64,000 bases of DNA from Blastocystis sp. Blastoise (lineage: Eukaryota; Sar; Bigyra; Opalinata; Blastocystidae): NCBI GenBank assembly GCA_039096225.1, contig JBBPEB010000014.1, positions 372,001-436,000 of the forward strand. The letters are read 5' to 3'. Each line of letters opens with the position of its first letter. The first letter of the stretch is position 1. Positions 21,787-42,006 of the stretch are shown in pieces. The position numbers and the translations under genes are program-made. The notes beneath the pieces were generated by a model that was not told the DNA's origin, searched no databases, and was given only the letters and a program-made list of their open reading frames with translations.

Positions 21787-24351
<2,565 letters not shown>

Positions 24352-24833: not shown

Positions 24834-26136
24834 ATGAAAATGCTATTGTTATTCCTTTTGATATTGTTCAACCTAGCTGTCGTATGAAAATTCCTTTTTA
24901 TTTTTTTCATTTGTTCAAATAGTCAGAAATTCAGCTTGTGGTACATATCCAAAGTTCAGAAAAACAATCAATTCAATTTGCTGATAATGAATTAAATCTT
25001 CTTATGAACGATCCGTATGTCAACTGTTCTATTCTTTCTTCTTTTTGCTATTTTTTATTTGTATATAAATAGAATGTTTGACTCAATAAATGTGAGACTT
25101 ATTCCTTTTGGTAATACATATAAAGATCATAAGACTGATGTATATTTATGTAAAAATGGTGAAAAGGAGTGTAAATTAGAACTCTATGAGAGTTGTGCAA
25201 TAAAGGAGTATGGTCTCAAAGTATCTTTTCCCTTTATCAAGTGTATTCAACAGTATTTTTTTCGTTAAATATTCAATCTTATTTCTTTTTTAGTCATTTG
25301 AATGATTTAGATGATTATTTAGCTGTTTGCTCATATAGACATTTTCTAAATCCAAATGATATCATACTCTGTACAGGCAATCAAAAATTAGTATATATAG
25401 ATATTATTTTTATTATTGATTACTAGGATATATATATTTTTTATAATTCCTATTATTTCTATGTATATGCATTTATATATATATAGATTTTCAAAGAAAT
25501 GGAAGAAGCCTCAAAAGAAACATTCCCCTTTCAATTTGTTAATTTGCCACTTGTTTTCGTGAATAATAATATGATTGAAAATCCCTCCAAACAACTCTTT
25601 TTCTCCTTATGCAAAGAATTCGAAGAAGAAAAAAAGCCAAAAGTATGTATAGTATATGTATTTTAGTGTAATTTTTTTGATATCTACTAATGCTGGATCT
25701 ATATTATTATTGTGTTATTATATGTTTATAATTAATATTTATTATTATATTATTATATTTATTATTATGTTTATTATTATATTATTATATTTATTATTAT
25801 GTTTATTATGTTTATTATGTTTATTATTATAGTTCTGTCAATATTATCCTCATAAGAATCTAACTGAAGTTGCTGTATATATATATATAATATTATATTC
25901 ATATTTTATAAGTTGTTTTCTTTATTATAATTATATATATAGACCCCTCGTCAAATTGATTCATTAAATATTCAACGATCAACTGTTGAAAGAGAATCCG
26001 ATGGTCCAATATTCACGGGAATTGTCGAATCTCAATTTAAAGTATATATATATAAGATTATTATAAAAACTATTCTATATTCTTTTTATTAACGATATTA
26101 TAATCATTTTTTCGTATATATTCTTCCTCTATCAAT

Positions 26137-26174
<38 letters not shown>

Positions 26175-29100
26175 CCCTGTTCGTTTATATATATCTTCTC
26201 AATCTATCGAGGCCTCTATGCATATTGAAACGCTCCTTATGCGAGTAATGGCCTATCCTCAGTATATATATACATATATATATATACTATTGATTATAAT
26301 AAGAAGAACATTATGATTATAGTAGTGTTCATTATGTTATGTTATTATTACTATTATTATAATACTATATATCACGCTATTCTTATTGTTCTAAGTCTAT
26401 ATCCCTATTCATCTCCTTCATATATACATATATATACATATATATACAAATACATATATATTATATATATGTTGTCTGTAGAGTTATCTCTAACAAACCC
26501 CATCTCTGTAGTATTGCTCCTTGGTTCGATGTATCCGTTATTGTATGGGGAAGCACGCACGTGCAGGAGGATGCGTCATTGGCATGTGATGGGGGACAGA
26601 ATGAATGCTATGGGAATATTGTTCTCACGTGCGTCATCCATCATCTTAAGAATCCCATCGATTATCTCCCCGTTATCAACTGCCTTATGCAGTATATATA
26701 TTATTATTATTATTATTATATTATTATATTATTATATTATTATTATATTATTATATTATTATTATTCTATTATTATATTATTATATTATTATTATTCTAT
26801 TATTATATTATTATTCTATTATTCTATATATATATATTTCATTATTCTTGCATATTTATTATTTTTTCTCTACCTATTTTTTTATTCTCTTGACTTTATT
26901 ATTATATATATATATATATAGATATCACAATCAAATGTCTTCTCATATTATGCCTTGTGTCGGTACAACTATAAATAAATATCAACTCGCTAATTGTGTT
27001 AACACCGATAAAGGCAAAAATGTATATTTATATAAATAAATATATACCTTTTTCTTCTTTGTATTCATCTTCTCTCGAATCTCTTAAGATCTTGATTCTC
27101 TATACTATTCTGTATCTATAGTTACTAGTAAAGAATGGTGAGGTTTCTATGTCTGCATTTCCCTACGGTATCCCAGCCTCTCCTACTCTAACGATAGGGG
27201 ATTATACATGTACTGGTTTATGTCCTGAATTTTATGATACTATATATAGACAAGGTCTTCTTAAAGTAGAATTATGGAGAAAGAAAGAAATGGAAATACA
27301 TCATGATAAATTTAAAGGAAAACGTTTACGTCGAAGTGATGAATTCCCGCGAATATGCAAGGATATCGATCTTCTAGAAGAGAATCGTGAAGAGGAAGAA
27401 GAAGAGCATGCAAAGAATAATAGTGATCATCATAATACTGCTATTTCCGAAGAAGAAGCTAAATTAAAACAACATGAACTTGAAGAGCAACAAGAAATCT
27501 TAGCTATGCAAGAAGAAGAAGAGAAGAAATTACATTCAAATCCATTCTCTTTAACGTTTAATCCTTCTTTTGCTCAATATAAATCTCCGCTTTCTCTCTC
27601 TTCACCTCTGTTACCTCTTTCTTCTTCTATTCCAATCCCTTCTATTGATGAGAAAACTACCTATTCCTTCTCTAGTTCTATATCTATTTATATTCTCTTT
27701 GATATTACCGATCCTACTACATTGTCCTTTCTAACACCTATATATATATATTCTCTCTATGAACAACAATATCAATATACATTACATCCTCTCCCAATCC
27801 TCTCTCTGTCACTCTCTTCATCCAATCAAATCCAATGTGCTTATAATGACTTAGAACATTGTAATCAAGCTAAACTCTATATCTGCGGAGCATCTAAGAT
27901 TCATAACGCATATAATATATTACTTTATTATTCGTGTTTATCTAAAATAGAATCTAAAGATAATTATAGTAAAGTCATAGAATGCTTAACACAAATTATC
28001 AATATAGTCGTTACGAGAGATGAACTTAGCACATGTGCTTTGTCCAATCAAATGGTTTCATTTGTACAGAAAATGATTCAAGAAAAAAATCTCCATTTCT
28101 CTGATGGAACACAATCCCCTTCATTAGGTGTTCATCATCAAGAATTCCCTGCTGTTTTCTCTACTTTTATTTCTATTCTTCAAACGTATGCACATGCTTT
28201 ACTCCCCTATATTGCCGGGGGACCCCTTCGTATTCCCGGGAAATCCTCCAAATGTGTTTTTTGTGTCGATCCCGGCATGTTATCCTCTTTGGCGGCAGTT
28301 CAAGTACAAAATATCGATATATATATCGACTTTGAATGTCCTCAAACAATTCCCTTTATTACCAAAAAGATTAAATATATAATGGATAGAGAAAAGTATT
28401 ATTTTTATTTTTTTTAATGTTTATTATTATTTTTATTTTTTTTTATTTTATTTTATGTTTATTATTATCTTTATATTGATTTTTTTATCTTTATTATTAT
28501 CAATTTTATTATCTTTATTATTATCTTTATTATATATAGATCAGAAGCATATAATATTTTCCTGCATCCCACGGGTCACGTGTTTTTGGATAATCGTTTA
28601 CAGCCATTATGTACGGCGAAAGAAAAGCATGTGTGTGAGCGTAATAATATTCTTGTTTGTATTAACAATTTATTTGATGATAATATTGTTCGATGGACTC
28701 TGTATAATTGCTTTATAAAGTATATATATATATATATTATATATATATATATATAGAATAGAATGAGTTATTTCTTATATATTAATGATAGTACTATTTA
28801 TTTATTTAATAGATATGGTGAATATGGTCCTTCGTACGTTGAATTATGTAGTGACGCGGCACGTGTCAATTATTTTGATTTCCATGAGTGTATATCCAAA
28901 CAATCTTTTGCTTATTTACGTAATGATTTGTTCACGTTGAAGAACAAGAATTTGAGAGTGACTTCGTCTCCTTTCGTATTACTGAATAATAAGTATATCC
29001 CACAAACAAAATCATTCTTCTATACTCTATGCTATGATTTAACTAATCCACCCAAAGTATATACTTTATATACATTATTATATATATTATATTATTATAT

Positions 29101-29219
29101 ATATTATTATATATATTATATACCCTTACAAATTATATTCCTTCTATCTTTAGTGGTGTCATCACATTCATCCCATGTTACTCGAGCAAGATCAGTGCCC
29201 TCTTCCCGCCTTATCATAA
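24834..29219 (+). CDS. Secreted protein of four tandem GILT-like domains lacking CXXC
   Basis: Fourteen exons: 24834-24881, 24923-25014, 25073-25252, 25294-25390, 25487-25642, 25833-25874, 25943-26041, 26173-26261, 26482-26691, 26922-27021, 27122-28395, 28540-28719, 28813-29056 and 29154-29219 (958 aa). Exon 1 is a signal peptide (MKMLLLFLLILFNLAV). Four segments repeat the fold of gamma-interferon-inducible lysosomal thiol reductase, at about residues 17-205, 238-390, 555-770 and 768-958. Units 1 and 2 keep the spacing of the CQHGxxEC...C signature (CKNGEKEC, CDGGQNEC); units 3 and 4 have degenerate versions. The redox CXXC expected near each N-terminus reads QSSEKQS, SSQSIEA, DITDPTT and ECPQT. 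Reductase activity is therefore unlikely. An acidic, probably coiled-coil segment lies near residues 460-520. Architecture seen; role unknown. Confidence 0.75.

Positions 29220-30177: not shown

Positions 30178-32780
<2,603 letters not shown>

Positions 32781-40191: not shown

Positions 40192-42006
<1,815 letters not shown>

Follow-up and report, generated by a model that had tools for sequence, protein, structure and literature searches.

A chain of four GILT units with degenerate active sites and conserved single cysteines in Blastocystis

GILT/IFI30 (Pfam PF03227; mouse structure PDB 6NWX) is a lysosomal thiol reductase that works at low pH, a protein of one unit with a thioredoxin-like fold, a CXXC (or CXXS) active site and ten conserved Cys, of which eight are structural. 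The GILT signature is CQHG-x2-EC-x2-N-x4-C, as given in an excerpt of PMC7017176. Its single-unit relative in Anopheles, mosGILT, is secreted, has CxxS at its active site and ends in an extended hydrophobic C-terminus; according to the excerpted text of PMC6060088, its reductase activity is undetectable, yet it acts on sporozoites, a non-enzymatic effect that is unchanged when its single active-site Cys is mutated. In a different sequence family, ERp44, TMX5 and PDI chains combine several thioredoxin-like folds, most of them without redox Cys and one with a single Cys. Excerpts describe mixed disulfides with clients both for ERp44, which has CRFS (PMC12781119), and for TMX5, which acts through a single-Cys site (PMC11443168).

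We analysed a gene within a stretch of 64,000 nucleotides of Blastocystis sp. Blastoise (the window). All units of its protein resemble GILT/IFI30 by profile and by the framework of eight structural Cys, but there are four units instead of one, none has CXXC, and the signature is present only as Cys spacing. The protein also belongs to a family in which CxxT/S, comparable to the CxxS of mosGILT, occurs in the fourth unit only. The likeness to ERp44 and PDI is one of analogy only; ERp44 has an ER retention signal, whereas the window family is without a KDEL-like tail. Among the matches listed (titles and abstract starts) in the literature on multi-GILT proteins and on Blastocystis GILT or thiol reductase, this family was not found.

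Gene structure and homology of the four units

The gene (NCBI WA158_002068) occupies 24834..29219 on the forward strand of contig C8, in a genome of 33.3 Mb and 34 contigs, and its extent is supported by a manual model, a dynamic programme and the NCBI protein P0019. In the manual model, 14 exons encode 958 residues followed by TAA, and all 13 introns start with GTAT and end with AG. The dynamic programme, a gene finder written for this analysis and partly trained on this gene, returned identical exons at 24834-29219. The independent NCBI model (922 residues, 98% identical to the manual model over 95%) begins only with exon 3 and has a different junction between exons 12 and 13, which drops one Cys present in other unit 4s. 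Exons 1 and 2 are backed by the paralogues C25 and C8:1231k, in which a short signal-like exon is followed by exons of 92, 180, 97 and 156 bases. Exon 1 (24834..24881, +), which is not in the NCBI model, encodes a hydrophobic start, MKMLLLFLLILFNLAV, that by eye resembles a signal peptide, in keeping with the secreted chain described by an earlier note on this DNA.

That note had also proposed four tandem GILT-like units in one chain, a view that Pfam, HMM and PDB profile searches all support and that agrees with the joining of all four in the NCBI model. In the profile search against PF03227 that the note had suggested, P0019 matched in four stretches with E 5.7e-34 and 117.1 bits, above the curated cut-off of 22.4; GILT was the sole Pfam family at E 0.001 or better, and no thioredoxin or PDI family appeared up to E 10. 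Unit 1 (residues 18-197, exons 2-6, 24926..25850, +) was delimited by an HMM of canonical units (i-E 1.7e-17) and by the table of Cys positions, and unit 2 (residues 238-422, exons 7-11, 26039..27274, +) by the same HMM (i-E 8.3e-16) and by Pfam GILT (2.7e-14). An acidic linker of 132 residues (423-554; 27275..27670, +) separates unit 2 from unit 3 (residues 555-745, inside exon 11, 27671..28243, +). Unit 4 together with the tail Cys spans residues 765-952 (exons 11-14, 28301..29198, +; HMM i-E 1.3e-11, Pfam 7.4e-8). Units 2 and 4 each exceed the PF03227 cut-off when searched alone.

The case of unit 3 is different. Units 1-4 score 59.3, 53.7, 6.8 and 40.0 bits with the canonical-unit HMM, and the top score among 1400 shuffled proteins is 6.5 bits, so that window unit 3 is not significant alone (i-E 0.21); searched alone, it has no Pfam GILT match. 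Other individually weak units are unit 3 of C31 (i-E 0.022), unit 3 of C8:1064k (0.012) and unit 2 of C8:1231k (0.032). Across the paralogues, five of seven unit 3s match Pfam GILT (best 3.7e-5), and the unit 3 family profile aligns with canonical GILT over 170 columns (hhalign E 3.7e-11); the corresponding values for the family profiles of units 1, 2 and 4 are 1.3e-16, 6.9e-22 and 7.6e-20. Mouse GILT (6NWX) is the top match for the profile of every unit type in a PDB set of 177,635 sequences, with E-values of 9.3e-14 for unit 1 (within the full-length profile), 2e-14 for unit 2, 0.0021 for unit 3 and 5.9e-13 for unit 4, and the matches that follow it have E 0.53 to 0.76 for all unit profiles. 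AlphaFold models were of low confidence, both for P0019 alongside four canonical tandem proteins (pLDDT 32.8, pTM 0.22), where the MAFFT input had misplaced the canonical third unit onto the linker, and for unit 3 of the window protein alongside eight GILT proteins (pLDDT 46.1, pTM 0.39). The GILT fold in units 2-4, on which the earlier note had staked its interpretation, is supported by profile homology, for window unit 3 only through its family profile. At the level of sequence, the window gene is confirmed as one chain of four GILT units.

Related loci and the origin of the four-unit plan

Scanned with Pfam, the genome shows 19 matches to GILT, distributed over 13 loci, and three further protein searches of the genome found no additional GILT locus. 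One locus, C24 (WA158_006200, P0001), encodes a single protein with four CXXC GILT units. C22 has three single GILT units (CNAC, CPDT and CPDC), and the single GILTs of C19 and C16 have CPGC and CPGT. Seven loci are degenerate and multi-unit: the window gene, C8:1064k, C8:1231k, C25, C29, C31 and C34. The four-unit architecture, which the earlier note had regarded as without parallel, therefore does not stand alone. Six degenerate loci begin with units 1 and 2 and, after a linker, continue with units 3 and 4 (units 1 and 2 of C8:1064k were identified by eye in exon translations and stand outside the counts and the tree), while C34 (C34:436-438k, -) has three units, which we read as 1, 3 and 4, and is a homologue with the intermediate repeat number that the note had thought worth seeking. 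The linker between units 2 and 3 is rich in D, E, N, S and K throughout; its 132 residues in the window protein compare with 338, 356, 712, 746 and ~1582 in the others. The longest, in the paralogue at C8:1060001-1073000 (-), consists of N/S/D/E/K-rich repeats in a single exon.

The paralogue gene models are gene-finder predictions, with reading frames complete across 10 or more exons; compared along their length, they share 19-25% identity with the window protein. We considered that these might be decaying genes, with the losses reflecting relaxed selection on redundant GILT copies. The low identity and the long end branches of the unit tree (below) fit such decay, but the complete frames do not, nor does the retention of framework Cys at 179 of 200 sites and of the unit 4 Cys and tail Cys in all seven paralogues, and we regard decay as very improbable. 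That all seven paralogues have open frames despite their divergence speaks for a function.

A tree of 43 units (6 unit 1s, 5 unit 2s, 7 unit 3s, 7 unit 4s and 18 canonical units) groups them by position, with support of 97/88 for unit 1s, 91/86 for unit 2s, and 100/98 for both unit 3s and unit 4s. The 18 canonical units, including those of C24, form one group (97/93) apart from the degenerate units, and end branches are long. This clustering by position indicates that the four-unit plan was in place before the paralogues arose and that the C24 tandem is a separate case. Among the unit 3s, that of C34 is the first to branch (the other six group at 99/93), and so, weakly, is its unit 1 among the unit 1s (91/82); its unit 4 is not first-branching and falls with C25 at weak support (90/65).

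Intron positions link the units within the gene. At columns 54-57 and 140-142 of the unit alignment, phase-2 introns are present in 5 of 6 unit 1s, in all 5 unit 2s and in 6 of 7 unit 4s. Units 1 and 4 also have recurrent phase-0 introns near column 222 and at 285, the first of which is found in 4 of 5 unit 2s as well. The exceptions are C34 in units 1 and 4, and unit 2 of C25, which has two extra introns and is without the intron at column 222. Unit 3 is intron-free at all seven loci and shares one exon with the start of unit 4. Units 1, 2 and 4 agree in where their introns lie and in phase, so that a module with introns inside it and phase-0 introns at its bounds was probably copied within a gene, which then multiplied. 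The same observations bear on whether adjacent single-unit genes have been wrongly joined in the gene model. The introns match in column and phase, a single exon spans unit 3 and the beginning of unit 4 in 7/7 loci, the other four-unit paralogues repeat the unit order, and the independent NCBI model also joins four units; such an artefact is, in our estimate, scarcely credible. Pseudogene and gene-fusion artefact were both judged unlikely on the open frames, the NCBI model and the shared introns.

Beyond this genome, a search returned 18 proteins at E 0.001 or better, the query included. Four metagenomic proteins split into GILT units that are all CPxC; P0002 and P0003 have four units each, P0005 and P0007 three each. 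These proteins and C24 resemble the window protein in having three or four GILT units per chain, but their units are much alike and all CPxC, whereas the window family is degenerate; neither a tail Cys nor a junction CXXC nor an acidic linker was seen in them. C24-type units fall within the canonical GILT group (97/93) and not among the degenerate units, which points to a separate tandem amplification; descent of the degenerate family from the active C24 tandem is not supported by the tree. Searches for the degenerate family elsewhere, with the window protein and with a five-paralogue profile, each returned P0019 alone. Since these searches require shared five-residue words and a length of 0.55-1.75 of the query, missed even the six paralogues of this genome, and depend on metagenome prediction that is poor for intron-rich genes, this result does not show absence.

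Two other kinds of protein came up among the metagenomic sequences. P0016, P0017 and P0018 carry the Pfam labels of a papain-type peptidase (PF00112) and GILT, a natural protease-reductase fusion. In P0012 a GILT domain without the active-site start comes after the ATPase of an ABC transporter, a join that may be an assembly or prediction error.

This one genome contains GILTs that are active, both single and as a tandem of four units, together with an intermediate of three units and six derivatives of four, which have lost catalysis and kept the fold. The steps that lead from an enzyme to an array of pseudoenzyme units can therefore be traced residue by residue.

Cysteines of the active sites, framework and tail

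The active-site CXXC is gone from all four units of the window protein, as first noted. The corresponding residues are QSSEKQS in unit 1, SSQSIEA in unit 2 and DITDPTT in unit 3, each with no Cys, and ECPQT in unit 4, where only the first Cys remains (Cys777; 28337..28339, +). The same pattern holds across the paralogues: in the table of Cys positions, none of the 18 units of types 1-3 has Cys at either active-site position, while unit 4 keeps the first active-site Cys in 7/7 paralogues and the second in one, C34, with CKWC. The other unit 4 active sites are CPQT, CTAS, CEIS, CIYN, CRNS and CESS.

The framework has fared differently. By hand count, the eight structural Cys are present at 179/200 sites in the L-INS-i alignment and at 175/200 with hmmalign, which indicates that the GILT fold is maintained while catalysis is not. 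Units 1-4 of the window protein have 8, 6, 6 and 8 of them (in unit 2 a new CTGLC replaces the last two), and the earlier claim that the framework persists in the first two units alone does not hold. The Cys spacing of the GILT signature survives, for example in CKNGEKECKLELYESC and CDGGQNECYGNIVLTC; no unit of the window protein has the exact signature. A new element is a C-x3-C located past the strand that comes next after the conserved Pro; it is present in 4 of 6 unit 1s, 4 of 5 unit 2s, 2 of 7 unit 3s and 0 of 7 unit 4s.

Two further sets of Cys are new. The last exon (29154..29219, +) contains a WC-x12-C tail and ends in PALS, and its final Cys, Cys952 (29196-29198, +), is kept in 7/7 paralogues. 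In six loci the last exon opens with WC just past the intron, and C34 has FC and lacks that intron; the spacing is C-x12-C in six loci and C-x11-C in C8:1231k. Unit 4 and the tail together have exactly 10 Cys in six of seven paralogues and 11 in C34. With 10 Cys, and the eight framework Cys paired, Cys777 and the tail Cys remain. The tail Cys is not simply a replacement for the lost active-site Cys, since C34 has it along with an intact CKWC. The second set is a CXXC in the linker of 19-26 residues before unit 4: CVFC in the window protein (residues 749-752; 28253..28264, +) and CTNC, CSSC, CKAC and CKDC in other paralogues, five of seven in all; it is missing in C29 and C8:1231k. The earlier description of a unit that keeps one Cys in ECPQT was correct, but mere loss is too simple an account, given the new conserved Cys of the tail (7/7) and the junction (5/7).

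The junction CXXC offers an alternative partner for Cys777 or for the tail Cys, which is a point against a Cys777-Cys952 pair. It might also serve as a new redox pair in a protein that is still a reductase or isomerase. Its register is conserved in five of seven paralogues, an outcome reached in 0/20000 shuffles of the junction residues, although this statistic ignores shared descent. Its absence from C29 and C8:1231k and its position in a short linker rather than at the start of a thioredoxin helix make this reading improbable.

Among the single GILTs of the genome, that of C16:582-583k (-), with CPGT, has a Cys 13 residues past the last framework Cys. The other CxxT single GILT, C22b, has no Cys nearby after the framework.

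Possible functions and neighbouring features

The absence of redox Cys from 18/18 units of types 1-3 makes a binding or structural role likelier than that of a reductase, as the earlier note had suspected. Our preferred reading, to which we assign a rough probability of 0.42, is that units 1-3 are pseudo-reductase binding modules and that a single-Cys unit 4 is paired with the tail Cys. The protein, built of four GILT (thioredoxin-like) folds, would be secreted or endolysosomal, a route suggested by the signal-like N-terminus together with C-termini that lack retention-like features: the seven paralogues end in PALS (the window protein), DVWI, NFVF, KQC, VCT, CSL and ESWN, and none of these tails resembles an ER-retention signal, a difference from ERp44 that counts against this reading. 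Units 1-3 would act as non-catalytic binding or spacing modules, kept rigid by the old GILT disulfides, and the flexible acidic linker would set the pair of units 1-2 apart from the pair of units 3-4. Cys777, a nucleophile without its resolving Cys, may pair reversibly with Cys952, leaving unit 4 capped at rest but able to engage a bound client in a mixed disulfide. This would follow the logic of ERp44 and of the a/b domains of PDI in a form rebuilt from GILT units. Precedents are TMX5 and ERp44, in which single-Cys sites can hold clients according to the excerpts of PMC11443168 and PMC12781119, and mosGILT, which in PMC6060088 acts without detectable reductase activity, although its independence of the Cys speaks the other way.

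We consider it nearly as likely as the Cys777-Cys952 redox reading that the protein is a purely structural or ligand-binding secreted protein, with all four units non-redox and with Cys777 in a permanent structural disulfide, either to Cys952 or to some other Cys, that closes the C-terminal tail onto unit 4. The loss of every redox Cys from units 1-3 and the even number of Cys in unit 4 and the tail of six of seven paralogues agree with this, and mosGILT, which in the excerpted text of PMC6060088 acts independently of its Cys, favours a purely non-redox role. It accounts less well for the nucleophile of unit 4, which stays in place in 7/7 paralogues when three sister units have lost it, and for the CKWC that C34 retains at this site.

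The preferred pairing of unit 4 with the tail Cys could be taken further, to an independent origin from GILT of thiol trapping like that of PDI and ERp44, with the site split between Cys777 and a resolving Cys on a flexible C-terminal tail and with three dead units selecting the client. We think this doubtful. If it were true, C34, with both CKWC and the tail Cys, would be a surviving intermediate, and the tail Cys would predate the loss of the second active-site Cys. The conserved tail Cys in any case provides a specific redox hypothesis that two point changes can test. GILT is among the gene groups that mark phagotrophic stramenopiles, according to an excerpt of PMC8163842, and a GILT-derived binding family may accordingly bear on how a gut stramenopile handles ingested or surrounding proteins.

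The window has other features besides the gene. Just upstream, at 22729-24351 (+), is an open frame with ~150 ATT/TAT units, whose flanks appear transposase-like by eye; a Pfam search of 23239-24348 gave no match. An array of ~300 bases at 30940-31230 is made of 7-base TATAATA-like repeats. Fusions of triosephosphate isomerase with GAPDH occur in stramenopiles, and one open frame at 40192-42006 (-) encodes such a fusion, with Pfam matches to TIM (1.9e-86), Gp_dh_N and Gp_dh_C.
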